Positions 52,886 to 60,638 of a DNA stretch of 64,000 nucleotides are shown here, piece by piece. The notes below the pieces were generated by a model, which did not search any database, was not told where the DNA came from, and saw nothing but the letters and a program-made list of their open reading frames with translations. The stretch is from contig NZ_CP061309.1 of NCBI RefSeq assembly GCF_018687955.1, positions 1,596,007 to 1,660,006 on the forward strand, read 5' to 3'. The position numbers and the translations under genes are program-made. The stretch's first letter is position 1. Each line of letters starts with the position of its first letter. Source of the DNA: Polynucleobacter ibericus (GTDB lineage Bacteria > Pseudomonadota > Gammaproteobacteria > Burkholderiales > Burkholderiaceae).

Positions 52886-54553
<1,668 letters not shown>

Positions 54554-54566
54554 TTAAATACCGAAA

Positions 54567-54857
54567 TTACTTCTGTACAACAGCCATGATGTCGTCTTCA
54601 CGCATCACGATGAGTTCTTCGCTGTCAACTTTGACCGTTTGACCTGCATATTTACCAAACAACACACGGTCGCCTACTTTGACGTCAGGTGCGTTTAATT
54701 TGCCACTGTCATCGCGCTTGCCTGGGCCTACTGCCAATACTTCACCTTGATCCGGTTTTTCTGCAGCAGCGTCAGGAATGATGATTCCGGAAGCAGTTTT
54801 TGATTCTTGATCTAAACGCTTGATGATTACGCGATCATGTAAGGGACGCAAATTCAT
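54567..54857 (-). CDS. groES: Co-chaperonin GroES (Hsp10)
   Basis: The 96-residue lid of the GroEL chamber: [18 protein letters not shown], a mobile loop ([22 protein letters not shown]) and the C-terminal [18 protein letters not shown]. It has a strong AGGAG Shine-Dalgarno before the ATG. A CIRCE element and a promoter with both sigma-70 and sigma-32 character lie 110-166 bp upstream. Confidence 0.98.
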
Positions 54858-54966
54858 CTCTTCTCCTATGTTAGTAAGTGTTAACTATTTAAATAAACTA
54901 TAAAAAACAATGCTTTACAGCCTCATTACCCGCGAAATAAAGGTAATTTACTGATAAATAACCTTT

Positions 54967-54993
54967 TTAGCACTCGCGTGTAGAGAGTGCTGA
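54967..54993 (-). promoter_or_regulatory. CIRCE operator (HrcA-binding site) of groESL
   Basis: TTAGCACTC-N9-GAGTGCTGA, the CIRCE inverted repeat with its exact 9-bp spacer and one mismatch to consensus (TGA for TAA). It directly follows the -10 element of the groESL promoter at the expected transcription start, so HrcA bound here would block initiation. The cognate repressor gene hrcA is at 11869-12879. Confidence 0.93.
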
Positions 54994-55023
54994 TTATATA
55001 GGTCTAATTCCCGAGATTTCAAG
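54993..55023 (-). promoter_or_regulatory. groESL promoter, sigma-70 and sigma-32 features combined
   Basis: On the minus strand CTTGAAA (55023-55017) serves both as a sigma-32 -35 and, as TTGAAA, a sigma-70 -35. The -10 region CCTATATAAT (55002-54993) holds TATAAT 18 bp from TTGAAA and CCTATATA, a poorer form of the sigma-32 CCCCATnT, 14 bp from CTTGAAA. The CIRCE repeat starts at the last base of the -10. Confidence 0.75.
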
Positions 55024-55063
55024 GGTGGATCGCCATAAATTCTTTAAGGATTTAGCCTCTTTT

Positions 55064-55069
55064 TATAAT
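55064..55069 (+). promoter_or_regulatory. Probable -10 element of the EAL-like/response-regulator/kinase operon
   Basis: A consensus TATAAT. The -35 is weak (TCTTTA at 55041-55046 would give a 17-bp spacer), which suggests activator dependence. The expected start is near 55076, giving a leader of about 98 nt before the chosen ATG at 55174. This promoter faces away from the groESL promoter, 41 bp from its -35. Confidence 0.55.
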
Positions 55070-55076
55070 GGGGACA

Positions 55077-55110
55077 GGTTGGTAGGACTGTTCCTACAGA
55101 TAAATCAACC
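55077..55110 (+). other. Leader hairpin 1 of the EAL-like operon
   Basis: GGTTG and GTAGGA on the 5' side pair with TCCTAC and CAACC on the 3' side, with a CTGT loop and an 8-nt bulge (55098-55105) between the two 3' segments. It begins at about the predicted transcription start, so it would form the 5' end of the mRNA. Confidence 0.55.
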
Positions 55111-55124
55111 CAAAGCCCTTACCG

Positions 55125-55166
55125 CTCCAATCCGTCCTGCCTAGACTGGACAGTCACTGATTGGAG
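55125..55166 (+). promoter_or_regulatory. Leader hairpin 2 burying the ribosome binding site
   Basis: CTCCAATC (55125-55132) is the exact complement of GATTGGAG (55159-55166), and the latter contains the GGAG Shine-Dalgarno of the EAL-like gene. An inner 4-bp stem, GTCC (55134-55137) with GGAC (55148-55151), can extend the structure. The loop also holds the palindrome GACTG-GA-CAGTC (55144-55155), which could be a protein site. If the stem forms, translation of the first gene should be blocked until it opens. Confidence 0.6.
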
Positions 55167-55173
55167 AATGCTG

Positions 55174-56016
55174 ATGAGCCCGAAATCCCGGCTGTACACG
55201 CTTGTAAAGGCATGGAAGAACAAACCCTTCCAAGAAGTACGTGACGCCTGTGGCGACCCCTGGCTTGGCCTTAGTAGCCAAGCCCTAGAAGAACACCAAT
55301 CTTGGTCCAAGCGACAAGCGATTAGTCATGAACCAATTTTTAACTGCAAGGGCACAAAACTGACAGGATCTTTATTTAGACCGCTACTGACAGCAACTGA
55401 TATGCAATTACTTCGTCTTTTCATGGAAGGCTTAGACACAATTGCCTATTGGTATCGTAGCGGTCGCTTTATCCCTGGAATCCTGCCAGTACCCAGCCAC
55501 GCCATAGCCTCTGGTAGCTATGTAGACGCGATGACTGAATTAATTTTGAACTCACGTCTACCAGTGGGTCTAGTGACTATTGGAATTTCATCTATCCCTG
55601 AATCTGATGCCACCGGTGCATTCAAAGAGGGTTTGCTGCGTTTGCGACGTCTTGGTGTCTTGCTTCATTTCCTGAAATTTTCTGGCAGCATCGAGGAATT
55701 GCATTGGGTAACAGAGATGCAGTTAGAAGGTGTTCATATTGATATGGGTAAGATTCGTGAACGTCAACTGGCGAGCGACGTGCTCTCTCAACTAAGGCAA
55801 TCAACTTACTCACCAACACAAATTTATGCCAGCAATATTGGACTGGTAAAAGATTTAGAGCGTGCTTCTAAGCTAATAGCAGATCACTCTTACGGCAGCA
55901 TCATGATGTCTCCCGTAAGTCGCCATCAAATGCTACAGATTGACGATAGCCGAATCGCAAAAGCCATTTTTTCGCTGCACCCTCATCCACACCCAAACCA
56001 AAACGGAGACAAGTAA
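55174..56016 (+). CDS. Degenerate EAL-domain protein (predicted non-catalytic)
   Basis: A 280-residue soluble protein with the overall plan of an EAL phosphodiesterase domain but without its active-site residues. EPIFNCKGTKLTGSLFRPLL aligns with the start of the fold, where the EAL triplet would be; here it is SLF. Later segments (VGLVTIGISSIPES, LRRLGVLLHFLKFSG, GVHIDMGKIRE, IYASNIG, YGSIMMSPVS) lie where ExTES, DDFGTG, KxD, AEGVE and QGYLF would be, with most acidic ligands gone. The ATG at 55174 has GGAGA six bases upstream; the ATG at 55168 overlaps that site. Its stop overlaps the response-regulator ATG (TAATG), so the two are coupled. Comparable proteins bind partners rather than c-di-GMP (YdiV), which is the likely mode here (inference). 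Confidence 0.68.
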   Translation: MSPKSRLYTLVKAWKNKPFQEVRDACGDPWLGLSSQALEEHQSWSKRQAISHEPIFNCKGTKLTGSLFRPLLTATDMQLLRLFMEGLDTIAYWYRSGRFIPGILPVPSHAIASGSYVDAMTELILNSRLPVGLVTIGISSIPESDATGAFKEGLLRLRRLGVLLHFLKFSGSIEELHWVTEMQLEGVHIDMGKIRERQLASDVLSQLRQSTYSPTQIYASNIGLVKDLERASKLIADHSYGSIMMSPVSRHQMLQIDDSRIAKAIFSLHPHPHPNQNGDK

Positions 56017-56639
56017 TGAGAAAACGCGTGATGTTAGTAGATGACCATCCAGCAATGCTGATGGCTCTTAAAAGTATGTTGCAAGACCAGTTGTTATTTG
56101 AAATTGCAGGGCAAGCTCAGAATGGTGAAGAGTGCCTCAGATCCATGAAAGAGGTAAATCCCAATATGGTTATTCTAGATCTAGATATGCCCAAAACAGA
56201 TGGGTTTGATGTTATTCGTCGTATTGGCTTGATGTATCCCGATGTACGAATGCTAGTCCTTTCTAGCATGGACGAAGCAGTCTATGGTGGAAGGGTTCGA
56301 TCATTAGGTGGACATGGGTTCGTCAATAAAACCGCAGGTGCTGATGTCATTCTGGCTGCCTGTGTTGCGATCTCTCAGGGTTACAACTTTTTTACCCATG
56401 GAAAAAATGGTAATAGCTCATTGAGCGATAACGATAAGTTGGCACTGATATCCGATCGCGAGCTTCAAGTCATGAAATACCTCGGAAAAGGTAATACCAA
56501 TCAACAGATATCTGACATGTTGCATATCAGCAATAAAACAGTAGCCACATACAAAACCAGAGTCTTCGACAAACTAGGCATAAATAATATTGCTGACCTG
56601 ATTTTGTTCTGCCGCATGAATAACATTATCGAGAGCTAA
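56016..56639 (+). CDS. NarL/BvgA-type response regulator
   Basis: A two-component DNA-binding regulator of 207 residues. The receiver domain has acidic pair Asp9-Asp10 (LVDDHPAM), phospho-acceptor Asp55 (ILDLDMPKTDGFDV), Ser in VLSSMDE and Lys in VNKTAG. The C-terminal LuxR-type helix-turn-helix is SDRELQVMKYLGKGNTNQQIS followed by HISNKTVATYKTRVFDKLGI. It overlaps the EAL-like gene by one base with GGAG 7 bases before its ATG, and precedes the hybrid kinase by 4 bp, so it is the obvious partner of that kinase. Confidence 0.9.
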   Translation: MRKRVMLVDDHPAMLMALKSMLQDQLLFEIAGQAQNGEECLRSMKEVNPNMVILDLDMPKTDGFDVIRRIGLMYPDVRMLVLSSMDEAVYGGRVRSLGGHGFVNKTAGADVILAACVAISQGYNFFTHGKNGNSSLSDNDKLALISDRELQVMKYLGKGNTNQQISDMLHISNKTVATYKTRVFDKLGINNIADLILFCRMNNIIES

Positions 56640-56643
56640 CAGC

Positions 56644-59070
56644 GTGCGTCGATCCATCACCCGTATTGCCTTCTTCACATTACTAAATGGATTATTAGGC
56701 AATTCATATGCAAATTTACTCGGCTCTGCAGAGCAGAGGTGGATCGATGCGCATCCTGTAGTACGTTTTAGCATTCATGAGAAGTACGCGCCCTATTTAG
56801 AAACTAATGAACGCGGTGAATCTGGGGTCTTTCACAGCCTACTAAGCAAACTCAGTCGTTACACCAAACAAGAATATCTACCGAAGTGGCGCAAAAGCGA
56901 TCAAGAAGGACTCCAACAGCTTGCCAATGGAGAGGTGGATTTCATCATTGATCCACCCACATTAAGTGATGATTATCTCAAGTTTGGCTCCCTTTCAGAG
57001 GCAATCTTTTGGGGTCACGACGCTATTGTTACAAAGCGCCCAAAGAATGATGCGCCCATTAAACCAAGCAATATCGCGTACTTTGATCGTGGCTTTGAAA
57101 ATCCCCCAATCCCAACCAATTCCATGGGAGATATTTCCAGCTCTGCAGAGAGATTAGTTGTCGCTCTTCTTAAAAACGATATTGAAGCAGTCGTATTGCC
57201 AATTAGGCTAGCGCAGCAACTCATTCATAAATTCAATGGCGATCAACTACAGGTTGATGGCTTATACAGCCGGGAGCCATTTGAATACCGTTGGTTTGTC
57301 CCGCATCAGCACGAGGCTTTACATGGCGTACTAGGGCGCTTTCTGAATAACTTAGATCCAGTTGCATCCCGCCAACTTTTTAAACTTAATATATCTACAC
57401 TTGAGACGGGCCATACTGCCCCGTCAAAATCGATGCCTTGGTTCACCGCTTTAGGAATTCTGCTAATAGGCTCTTTCCTAATCTGGCGCATGTATCAAAA
57501 ACAATCTATGCAAAAAGAAGAGGCTCAACAACTAATGTCATCCAAAGAGCGGGCTGAAAATGCAAACGCAGCGAAGTCCGCCTTTCTTGCAACCATGAGC
57601 CACGAAATTCGTACGCCTATGAATGCAATTTTAGGGGTACAGGAATTATTACTGAACAGCCCCCTCCCAAAAAATGAAAAGACTCTGCTGAAGAGTGCTC
57701 ATTCATCAGCAGAATGTTTATTGGGGATCTTGAATCAAGTATTAGATCTTTCGAAAATTGAAGCGGGAAAGCTCACTCTGAATATTGAACCTTGCAACCT
57801 GAATGCCTTGATTGATGATATTGATTCGACATTCTCAACAGTTGCCCAAAGGCAAGGTCTAAAACTTCACACTTCTAAAGATCCGCGCGTTGCAGAGGTT
57901 TTACTGCTAGATTCACTACGCTTACGTCAAATACTACAAAATCTCATTAGCAATGCGATTAAATTCACCAACCATGGTGAAATCTATTTCTCCATCAGCG
58001 TATTGGCAGATGATCATGCTGGTCAGCTCATTGAATTTAGAGTAATTGATACAGGCATTGGCATGGGACAAGAGGAGATCGAAATTGCACTGCAAGCCTT
58101 TGAACAAATACCTGGAAATGCCGAACAACCAAATGGGACGGGTCTTGGCTTAACCATCAGCAACCACTTAGTCACCTCCATGAATGGTCAGCTCCTCTTT
58201 GAGAGTGCACCTGGCTTTGGTAGCAATATCCATTTTTGTCTTGCTTTTCCACGTACCAGTATTGCAGCGACCAGATCCCCCATGCCAAATAGCACTGGCT
58301 GTATCAGGAAGTTAGTCCCTAAGGATATAGAAAGTAATGCACGTCCATTGCAAGCATTGGTTGTGGAAGATCATCCAGCAAGTCGCCAAATAATTTCACT
58401 CCAACTCCAGGCGCTAGGCATTGATCCCTCAGTTTGTGATAACGCCATTACCGCACTAGATTTAATTCAGCAAAAGCATTTTGATCTTCTCCTAACAGAT
58501 CAATCCATTCCCGGCATGCAGGGTTCTGATCTTGCTAAACACTTACGTGATGCAGGATACCAAGATCTCGTCATCATCGGAATTACCGCTGATATTTATG
58601 CGCTAGAGTCTCGTCATCAGTTCTTAGCTGCCGGCATGAACGGCGTCCTCATAAAACCTTTAAGTCTAATGACCTTAGAAAATGAACTCTCACGTTATTT
58701 TAAAACTGAGGAAATTAGTAACAGAGTATTACCCGCCAAGAATCAGGAAGAATATTCCTTTGATGCCTTTCAAAATCTGCTACGGAAAAGTCCAGAGTAC
58801 ATTTTGATCATTCTGGAAGAAATTAAACAAGTTCATGATGAGGTCCTATTTGCGCTCAAGAATAAGGATTTAGATAAGACTTGCTTTAAGCGTATGGTTC
58901 ATAAAGTAAAGGGTGGCGCGCAACTCCTGAGCGCCACAAAATTTGTTGAATCCTGCGAAGCTCTTGAGCAGGAAGGAAATTTAGTTGAGCAAGCCACTAC
59001 CCTCACCCGATTATTAGAAGATCAAAATCAAGTTATCAATCACTATCAATCTAGATATTCAGAGCACTAG
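56644..59070 (+). CDS. BvgS/EvgS-like hybrid sensor kinase with phosphorelay
   Basis: An inner-membrane sensor of 808 residues, GTG start 4 bp after the response regulator. Order of domains: signal peptide (1-24); one periplasmic solute-binding type domain (about 28-250, starting QRWIDAHPVVRFSI); a single membrane helix (266-283); a short linker with no PAS domain; HisKA with His320 (FLATMSHEIRTPMN); HATPase with Asn437, DTGIGMG (469-475) and NGTGLGLTIS (497-506); a receiver domain with Asp619 (LLLTDQSIPGM) and Lys671; and a C-terminal Hpt domain with His753 (MVHKVKGGAQLL). All four phosphorelay residues are intact. BvgS has two periplasmic domains and a PAS, so this is a smaller version. The ligand is unknown. 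Confidence 0.88.
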   Translation: MRRSITRIAFFTLLNGLLGNSYANLLGSAEQRWIDAHPVVRFSIHEKYAPYLETNERGESGVFHSLLSKLSRYTKQEYLPKWRKSDQEGLQQLANGEVDFIIDPPTLSDDYLKFGSLSEAIFWGHDAIVTKRPKNDAPIKPSNIAYFDRGFENPPIPTNSMGDISSSAERLVVALLKNDIEAVVLPIRLAQQLIHKFNGDQLQVDGLYSREPFEYRWFVPHQHEALHGVLGRFLNNLDPVASRQLFKLNISTLETGHTAPSKSMPWFTALGILLIGSFLIWRMYQKQSMQKEEAQQLMSSKERAENANAAKSAFLATMSHEIRTPMNAILGVQELLLNSPLPKNEKTLLKSAHSSAECLLGILNQVLDLSKIEAGKLTLNIEPCNLNALIDDIDSTFSTVAQRQGLKLHTSKDPRVAEVLLLDSLRLRQILQNLISNAIKFTNHGEIYFSISVLADDHAGQLIEFRVIDTGIGMGQEEIEIALQAFEQIPGNAEQPNGTGLGLTISNHLVTSMNGQLLFESAPGFGSNIHFCLAFPRTSIAATRSPMPNSTGCIRKLVPKDIESNARPLQALVVEDHPASRQIISLQLQALGIDPSVCDNAITALDLIQQKHFDLLLTDQSIPGMQGSDLAKHLRDAGYQDLVIIGITADIYALESRHQFLAAGMNGVLIKPLSLMTLENELSRYFKTEEISNRVLPAKNQEEYSFDAFQNLLRKSPEYILIILEEIKQVHDEVLFALKNKDLDKTCFKRMVHKVKGGAQLLSATKFVESCEALEQEGNLVEQATTLTRLLEDQNQVINHYQSRYSEH

Positions 59071-59108
59071 GTAATCACTTTGAGCAATGTGGGTTTATCC
59101 TATGGGTA

Positions 59109-60638
59109 ATGCGCCTCCATTTAATTTGCCAGTCCGCCTTTGCTGCAGCCTTCCTTTGGCTTCCTAGTTCGCTAGTCCTTGCCAATGAGACGCCGCCCTT
59201 GGCTATTCCCCAAGTTGTATTTAGTAGTCTAGAGCGCAATCAAATTCCAAAAGATGCAGTGAGTATTTCGGTTACAGAGATCGAACCTGGACGACCTGGT
59301 AAGCATCTAGCAAAAAAGATTCTAGATTGGCGGTCTAACGATCCAATGAACCCCGCCTCAACTATGAAGTTATTTACTACGCTTACAGGCTTAGATATTT
59401 TGGGGCCGCAATATCGTTGGCGTACAAATGTCTATAGCGATGGTGTAATTCGTCAGGGAGTATTGAAGGGCAATCTGTATTTGCAAGGCACAGGCGATCC
59501 CAAACTTGTTCCTGAAGAGTTAGCCAAGATGATGAAAGAGCTTCAAGGCCTAGGCATTCAGAAGATTGATGGCAATTTATTCTTTGATCGTAGCGCTTAT
59601 GCGCCAACTGTCATGGAGCACAACACGATTGATGGCGAGTCTTTACGTGCCTATAACGTTCCACCAGATCCGCTGCTTTATGCATTTAGAACACTCTCAT
59701 TTCAGATTGGAAAATCTAAAACAGCAGACTTTATCGATATTAGCTATACGCCAGCACTGTCACAACTCAAGGTATCCAATCAAATGCAGTTGGTTGATCG
59801 CCCGTGTGATAACTGGAAAAGTGATATTCGCTTTAATTTAGATCCAGAAGGCATTAGCAACACCGATCAGCCCCTAACCGCTCAGTTCTCTGGAGCATTT
59901 CCCGGATCATGTAGGGGTGTGAACTTTAACGTTGTTGCTCTTGATGCCAATACCTTCCTTACTCAAGGCTTTGCTGCTGCATGGGAACGAGCTGGTGGGA
60001 CTTGGGTCCAAGCTCCAGTTGGCAAAAACGGAAGTGTGCCACTAGCAGCACGATTACTTCTGCAGTTTGAGGGCATTGCACTAGCGGATGATGTATTGGA
60101 TATCAATAAATACTCGAATAACGTGATGGCTCGCCAACTGCTATTAACTTTAGCTTTGGAGAAAATGGGAAAACCTGCTACGACCGCTAATGGTGAGCTT
60201 GTTATGCAAAGTTGGCTCAAACAAAATGGCCTGGACTTTCAGGGTCTAGTTATTGAGAATGGCTCTGGTCTGTCGCGCAATGAAGCTATCTCTGCTAGTC
60301 AGATGAATCAACTCTTGTTGACTGCACGTAATTTACCCGTAGGCGATATTTTTTATAACAGTCTTCCGATTGCCGGTACTGATGGCACTATGCGTAACCG
60401 CCTTATGGGTCAGTTACGTAAGTTTTTGCATCTCAAGAAAAAGCCTGAGGCCCGAATCAAAACGGGCTCACTTGTGGATGTACGTGCAATCTCGGGTTAC
60501 GTCTTGAGTAAGTCCGGCAAAATGTATGCAGTAACTTCATTCATTAACCACCCTAATGCATGGAGAGGTTTAGAAGCGCACGATCAGTTACTAGCGTGGC
60601 TGCTTGAAGATGGTCCGGAACCAAAACACGCACGCTGA
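59109..60638 (+). CDS. dacB: D-alanyl-D-alanine carboxypeptidase/endopeptidase (PBP4)
   Basis: Periplasmic penicillin-binding protein that trims and opens peptidoglycan crosslinks. The 509-residue protein has a signal peptide (1-25, FAAAFLWLPSSLVLA), catalytic Ser84 in the SxxK motif (NPASTMKLF, Lys87), the SxN motif in NKYSNNVMARQ and the KTG motif in RIKTGSLVDVRAISGY. It begins 38 bp after the hybrid kinase stop on the same strand and could be read through from that operon. Its last 55 bp overlap the convergent sua5 gene. Confidence 0.94.
   Translation: MRLHLICQSAFAAAFLWLPSSLVLANETPPLAIPQVVFSSLERNQIPKDAVSISVTEIEPGRPGKHLAKKILDWRSNDPMNPASTMKLFTTLTGLDILGPQYRWRTNVYSDGVIRQGVLKGNLYLQGTGDPKLVPEELAKMMKELQGLGIQKIDGNLFFDRSAYAPTVMEHNTIDGESLRAYNVPPDPLLYAFRTLSFQIGKSKTADFIDISYTPALSQLKVSNQMQLVDRPCDNWKSDIRFNLDPEGISNTDQPLTAQFSGAFPGSCRGVNFNVVALDANTFLTQGFAAAWERAGGTWVQAPVGKNGSVPLAARLLLQFEGIALADDVLDINKYSNNVMARQLLLTLALEKMGKPATTANGELVMQSWLKQNGLDFQGLVIENGSGLSRNEAISASQMNQLLLTARNLPVGDIFYNSLPIAGTDGTMRNRLMGQLRKFLHLKKKPEARIKTGSLVDVRAISGYVLSKSGKMYAVTSFINHPNAWRGLEAHDQLLAWLLEDGPEPKHAR

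Follow-up and report, generated by a model that had tools for sequence, protein, structure and literature searches.

The EAL-like operon and its three proteins

In the current study, we characterized a three-gene locus within a 64,000-nt stretch of Polynucleobacter ibericus DNA (contig NZ_CP061309.1, positions 1,596,007 to 1,660,006; this whole stretch is the window, and gene coordinates are given in its numbering). The locus encodes a degenerate EAL-fold protein, a response regulator and a hybrid sensor kinase (Table 1), and a first-pass annotation had read it as a linked module of a dead EAL protein, a BvgA/NarL-type regulator and a compact BvgS-like kinase. The coordinates of the open reading frames (ORFs) agree with the tight spacing described there: the stop codon of the EAL-like gene and the start codon of the regulator gene overlap by one base in TAATG, and four bases lie between the regulator stop and the kinase GTG. 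An alternative ATG for the EAL-like gene is present at 55168, but GGAG at 55163-55166 favours the start at 55174. The kinase stop is followed after 38 bases by a D-Ala-D-Ala carboxypeptidase gene, dacB, and the kinase-dacB order is kept in the main-clade loci with gaps mostly of 20-60 bp, so that the operon probably continues into the carboxypeptidase gene as its last member. In one deep group (L093, L096, L101, L102, L107, and L108), ~2.3-2.4 kb lie between the two genes, and at this distance the carboxypeptidase is probably outside the operon.

Table 1. Coordinates of the operon and of the elements in its promoter region.
Feature	Position	Strand	Description
EAL-like gene	55174..56016	+	Degenerate EAL-fold protein, 280 aa
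Response regulator gene	56016..56639	+	NarL/FixJ-type response regulator, EvgA/FimZ/BvgA group, 207 aa
Kinase gene	56644..59070	+	Hybrid sensor kinase, 808 aa, GTG start; signal peptide, one Venus flytrap (VFT) domain, transmembrane (TM) segment, HisKA-HATPase-REC-Hpt
Carboxypeptidase gene	59109..60638	+	D-Ala-D-Ala carboxypeptidase/endopeptidase (DacB/PBP4-type); name from the P. asymbioticus annotation
Inverted-heptad box GTAGGACTGTTCCTAC	55082..55097	+	Putative site for the operon's own response regulator
TAGACT	55142..55147	+	Conserved -10-like element; promoter alignment of 57 main-clade loci
CIRCE element for groES	54967-54993		Conserved; in the groES/EAL-like intergenic region

The response regulator carries full REC and GerE domains in Pfam, as expected of the BvgA/NarL type. 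Its best NCBIfam relatives are EvgA and FimZ, both below the equivalog cut-offs. With this domain pair and inverted TTTCCTA-type sites at the promoter, the protein falls into the BvgA/EvgA/FimZ group and would be expected to bind DNA. The ratio of non-synonymous to synonymous substitution rates (dN/dS) of its gene is mostly 0.002-0.02, reaching 0.046 in one basal pair, and is close to that of GroES. Within the main clade the regulators are 90-100% identical, again about as GroES, versus 57-77% for the kinases, which is an unusual contrast for a cognate pair.

The kinase has the Pfam domains HisKA, HATPase_c, REC, and Hpt (the last just under the cut-off), with the motifs SHEIR at residue 319 and HKVKGG at residue 753. 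As a family profile, its N-terminal 280 residues match the periplasmic structures of EvgS (E 1e-6) and BvgS (8e-6 to 5e-5), and weak SBP_bac_3 matches were obtained for four of eight kinase orthologs; no PAS domain was found in the kinase. "Compact BvgS-like" is a fair label for this layout of one VFT domain, a TM segment and a HisKA-HATPase-REC-Hpt phosphorelay. Main-clade kinases measure ~800 aa and include the VFT domain; several basal lineages lack it and have kinases of 510-590 aa with TM-only or short N-termini joined to the same HisKA-HATPase-REC core; Hpt was detected in part of these. Both kinds of kinase are accompanied by the EAL-like gene and the regulator. As the sensor region varies while these two genes stay, the EAL-like protein tracks the regulator/kinase core and not the periplasmic sensor.

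Fold, active site and conservation of the EAL-like protein

Used alone as a query, the EAL-like protein of the window gave no match in Pfam (E<=1) or phmmer searches. PF00563 was matched by 25 of 32 diverse orthologs (best E-value 3e-8), the window member not being among them, and the family profile matched EAL structures including RocR. An AlphaFold model made with near-identical orthologs only reached a predicted local distance difference test score (pLDDT) of 67; once deep lineages were added to the alignment, this rose to 81, with a predicted template modelling score (pTM) of 0.74. Foldseek comparison of the AlphaFold model with the PDB gave EAL structures only among the 50 best matches listed. 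By its TIM-barrel fold and detectable homology, the protein is a member of the EAL domain family.

Active-site positions were located by aligning the family profile with 2r6o and RocR, and those of the EAL motif from a weak alignment together with the pattern of strands. Every position mapped in this way carries a substitution, which bears out the description of the first gene as an EAL protein stripped of catalytic residues. Across the 32 orthologs, the EAL glutamate has become L/I/V/T, the asparagine P, a metal-site glutamate G/P and the DD pair LK-like, while K is replaced by H in 30 and Q by Y in all 32. The ExLxR arginine and both metal-site glutamate positions are likewise replaced nearly throughout, and relics are limited to a loop glutamate in four orthologs, all deep members, and one aspartate in three. 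In the window protein, the EAL-motif stretch (residues 61-72) has no acidic residue at all. The protein thus lacks the catalytic set of an EAL phosphodiesterase for cyclic di-GMP (c-di-GMP), namely E, N, E, DD, K, E, and Q, and the earlier proposal that it does not hydrolyse c-di-GMP holds in that the residue loss rules out a normal phosphodiesterase. No REC domain was matched in its 280 residues, which sets it apart from REC-EAL proteins of the RocR/VieA type. Whether it acts as a partner of the phosphorelay or as its output, the protein is almost certainly non-enzymatic.

Other positions have become fixed. W93, G132, R159, G161, Y240, and G241 are new invariant residues, and H188, R195, D227, H251, and Q252 are nearly so. 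The N-terminal helix is basic and conserved (MSPKSRLYxLVKxWKNKP), and in the main clade both this helix and a C-terminal SRHQ block are near-invariant. Across 18 pairs of loci the dN/dS of the EAL-like gene was 0.06-0.13, and the gene is under strong purifying selection.

The family appears to be a Polynucleobacter property. In a family-level sample of 300 genomes it occurred in 39 of 40 members of the genus, with one weak match outside it, to an ordinary 825-aa frame. A profile search of 349 Burkholderiales genomes (E<=1e-7) found no further stand-alone degenerate EAL protein; matches at the order level were ordinary EAL proteins, mostly GGDEF-linked or REC-linked. According to the first-pass annotation, absence or random placement of the EAL-like gene in relatives would have spoken against a partnership with the regulator and kinase. 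The survey gave the opposite picture. Hand comparison of the search results for 151 Polynucleobacter genomes placed the EAL-like protein and the regulator together in 134, with neither in 13 and four discordant: two at contig ends (G374 and G392), one with a regulator that is present but diverged (G275), and one with a decayed module (G084). In every examined locus with a sufficiently long contig, the order EAL-like gene, regulator, kinase was invariant, also at 22-30% identity between EAL-like proteins, and the gap between the first two genes ranged from -29 to +23 bases, broken copies and one ill-defined regulator start aside. In the complete genome G355 (L190), dacB comes shortly after groES, and the module has been lost cleanly. 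The linkage of the three genes is a genus-wide trait found in almost every Polynucleobacter, and an arrangement kept in this way across the genus is far beyond chance. Stepwise decay was seen in smaller genomes (L090/G084, L091/G260, L162/G319, and L167/G313), where the EAL-like gene was broken first or together with the kinase, and the regulator last.

Promoter architecture and published stress data

The inverted repeat GTAGG-N4-TTCCTAC precedes the EAL-like start codon by 92 bp. Where the upstream sequence is long enough, main-clade loci carry the box at -86 to -93 almost without exception; several deep lineages have it at -91 to -101, and its centre varies across loci. In some lineages it reads GTAGGAAATTTCCTAC, that is, two inverted TTTCCTA heptads, and TTTCCTA is a high-affinity half-site of BvgA (PMC4314077). 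Of 20 complete or near-complete genomes, 19 have a single exact full box, the one at this promoter; a second exact copy, which might mark an additional target, was seen in G254 (G254:C1:545506-545521). When the full box was used in a regulon search, one-mismatch copies beyond the operon were no commoner than those of a reversed-pattern control.

Alignment of 57 main-clade loci revealed a conserved block, CTGCCTAGACTGG, around TAGACT. Taken as a -10 element, TAGACT would put the box near -65. A consensus scan found no -35 element matching it, as is expected of an activator-dependent promoter. From this arrangement, the regulator may autoregulate the operon via the putative box. A literature search for an EvgA box, with one consensus string tried, returned no paper, and an Rfam scan of positions 54500-59200 detected no RNA element.

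Published proteome data from P. asymbioticus QLW-P1DMWA-1 (PXD020103, as cited in PMC7522526) bear on when the operon is used. In the sections of that paper drawn on here, the locus tags are Pnuc_1805 for GroEL, Pnuc_1808 for a LuxR-type two-component regulator, Pnuc_1809 for a histidine kinase, and Pnuc_1810 for the D-Ala-D-Ala carboxypeptidase (PMC7522526). This gene order matches the P. ibericus locus, and from the locus numbers the EAL-like gene should be Pnuc_1807. The regulator protein changed by log2 +4.04 at 4 °C and +3.19 under ultraviolet light (UV), the kinase by +1.75 at 4 °C, and the carboxypeptidase by +4.69 under UV (PMC7522526). Panels C/D of Table 1 in that paper are headed "4 deg C / Down-regulated", whereas its legend assigns them to up- and down-regulation under UV; for the UV values given here we relied on the legend and on what the paper says about UV and cell structure in a section of its own. 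In the same sections, the authors discuss the carboxypeptidase without the neighbouring kinase and regulator (PMC7522526).

Known relatives and the role of the EAL-like protein

The operon resembles several known systems. Like BvgAS/BvgR of Bordetella, it combines a BvgA-type regulator, a BvgS-type hybrid kinase with VFT sensing, and an EAL-fold protein, and its box carries the BvgA half-site TTTCCTA (PMC4314077). The first-pass annotation had set the EAL-like protein apart from BvgR by its catalytic loss and by its place in the operon. Only the second distinction stands: the EAL-like gene is here the first of the same operon and coupled to the regulator. BvgR, which we compared by description, likewise has the EAL fold without the residues needed for catalysis, is made under the control of phosphorylated BvgA (BvgA~P), antagonises RisA, and probably acts by protein-protein contacts, according to a 2025 review that states its mode of action as an open question (PMC12805831). 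The contrast in catalysis therefore falls, and the parallel becomes stronger. Differences remain in the kinase, which has one VFT domain and no PAS domain compared with two VFT domains plus PAS in BvgS, and in the ligand site, since BvgR is thought to keep c-di-GMP-binding motifs (PMC12805831) and the canonical binding positions are also lost in the Polynucleobacter protein.

A BvgS-like kinase, a NarL-type regulator and an EAL protein also share a locus in RocS1-RocA1-RocR (Roc1/Sad) of Pseudomonas and VieSAB of Vibrio. RocR and VieA have a REC domain, and RocR is an active phosphodiesterase, whereas the Polynucleobacter protein has neither REC nor active site; RocR regulates its system negatively, and RocR3 acts as a repressor despite compromised motifs (PMC12051241). 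YdiV/RflP (STM1344) and STM1697, which are anti-FlhDC proteins, are stand-alone EAL folds that bind a transcription regulator (PMC3510510, PMC10100727), a kind of contact that may also occur here; this likeness is one of description, and the two differ from the present protein in having FlhD as target and in not belonging to a phosphorelay operon. EvgAS and FimZ are approached through the regulator, whose nearest NCBIfam models they are, albeit under the equivalog cut-offs, and through the kinase, whose VFT region best matches EvgS. To our knowledge, neither the EvgAS nor the FimZ operon includes an EAL gene. We regard the module as real, conserved, and subject to selection, and as a variant of Bvg/Roc systems, not a category of its own.

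Kin outside the genus suggest how it arose. Among 399 Burkholderiales genomes, the best relatives of the regulator share 38-42% identity and come from few genomes. In three of five fetched neighbourhoods (L182, L183, and L185), a divergently transcribed gene encodes a REC-EAL protein of 408-423 aa whose EAL residues are intact; a further locus, L191, combines a REC-EAL gene and a regulator with a BvgS-like kinase of 1156 aa that matches SBP_bac_3. Such neighbourhoods have the RocSAR/VieSAB layout, which suggests that the Polynucleobacter protein came from an EAL partner of this kind, losing REC and catalysis.

Taken together, we favour, at a probability of roughly 0.5 (0.52), an autoregulated phosphorelay operon of the BvgAS/RocSAR type whose EAL protein, once a phosphodiesterase, now serves as a protein-binding subunit. 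This reading rests on gene content, active-site loss, linkage, co-loss, selection, and the conserved unique box, and it draws further on the variable sensor region, the REC-EAL genes beside most of the nearest regulator relatives outside the genus, and the published rise under cold and UV. In it, the kinase would sense an envelope or periplasmic cue (through the VFT domain in this clade) and pass phosphate H-D-H to the regulator, which would bind the inverted heptad box and raise expression of its operon, the cell-wall carboxypeptidase gene downstream probably included. Co-translated with the regulator and not touching c-di-GMP, the EAL-like protein would most likely bind the regulator or the kinase core directly as a feedback modulator, inhibition being the likelier effect, as with YdiV and FlhD. 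Several observations weigh against this reading. The box is absent in basal lineages (L082-L086, L099, L100, L104, and L105), the regulator evolves at a far lower rate than the EAL-like protein, and the EAL tree, in which the family sits on a long branch, neither supports nor rejects a placement beside the REC-EAL neighbours (p-AU 0.31). Moreover, an intact regulator stands beside a broken EAL-like gene in G313, G319, and G260, and L055/G412 has a frameshift in the latter gene, so that the regulator can persist for some time at least once the EAL-like gene is broken, chiefly in smaller genomes.

The chief competing explanation, which we consider unlikely but of real weight, is that the regulator chiefly activates its own operon and the EAL-like protein, as the system's output, binds an unrelated target, such as another regulator or an enzyme. 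The precedent is BvgR, controlled by BvgA~P and proposed to oppose RisA (PMC12805831), and the occurrence of the full box essentially once per genome would make the EAL-like protein and the carboxypeptidase the main products controlled. Weaker or half-site targets may nevertheless exist beyond the pattern used, and a local partner would account at least equally well for the translational coupling to the regulator and the consistent co-loss.

A non-catalytic c-di-GMP receptor of the LapD/FimX type, feeding c-di-GMP into the phosphorelay, is improbable. The ligand is probably at hand, judging from the gene content: a c-di-GMP gene cluster at G000:C1 ~1135000-1156000 (L059-L061, L192, and L193) holds three genes for GGDEF proteins, whose motifs read GGDEF/GGEEF and two of which have HD-GYP-like ORFs as neighbours, and a frame of 924 aa that matches PilZ twice. 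No canonical EAL domain was found in the genome, so that c-di-GMP would depend on HD-GYP enzymes for its turnover. In view of the GGDEF proteins, PilZ matches, and HD-GYP-like ORFs, we dropped the idea of a genome without c-di-GMP. The binding motifs thought to persist in BvgR (PMC12805831) would also suit a receptor. The EAL-like protein, however, has the EAL glutamate, the ExLxR arginine, N, both metal-site E, DD, K, and Q replaced nearly throughout. Receptors of the FimX/LapD type keep most of the ligand pocket.

Two further explanations have very little probability. A phosphodiesterase of altered chemistry could draw on the retained TIM barrel, with W93, R159, G161, Y240, and G241 (and, nearly, H188, R195, and H251) forming a new site, but all metal-binding residues are lost, and we know of no EAL enzyme that works without them. 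A decaying, functionless relic of a RocR-like protein would explain the broken copies in several genomes, but not a gene that is intact in most of 134 genomes, with the dN/dS noted above in all pairs tested and near-invariant terminal blocks in the main clade.

A wider form of the protein-binding reading can be put forward tentatively: a three-protein phosphorelay shared across the genus would serve these abundant freshwater bacteria under cold and UV stress, with a dead EAL protein, devoid of ligand-binding residues, as a subunit dedicated to the regulator/kinase core and with the operon itself, cell-wall enzyme included, as most of its transcriptional output. The operon offers, in a freshwater bacterium that is harmless, a naturally simplified version of a Bvg-like system, with one operon, one strong promoter box and a dead EAL protein locked to the regulator. 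The sequence leaves an active c-di-GMP role hardly any probability. The operon would allow tests of the control that degenerate EAL proteins exert on two-component systems when the second messenger plays no part, and the proteome values reported in PMC7522526 (PXD020103) already give inducing conditions.

The intergenic region that holds the phosphorelay promoter is common to groES. A strong groES promoter on the minus strand comes with a controlling inverted repeat of chaperone expression (CIRCE), TTAGCACTC-N9-GAGTGCTGA, which is an HrcA-type operator.

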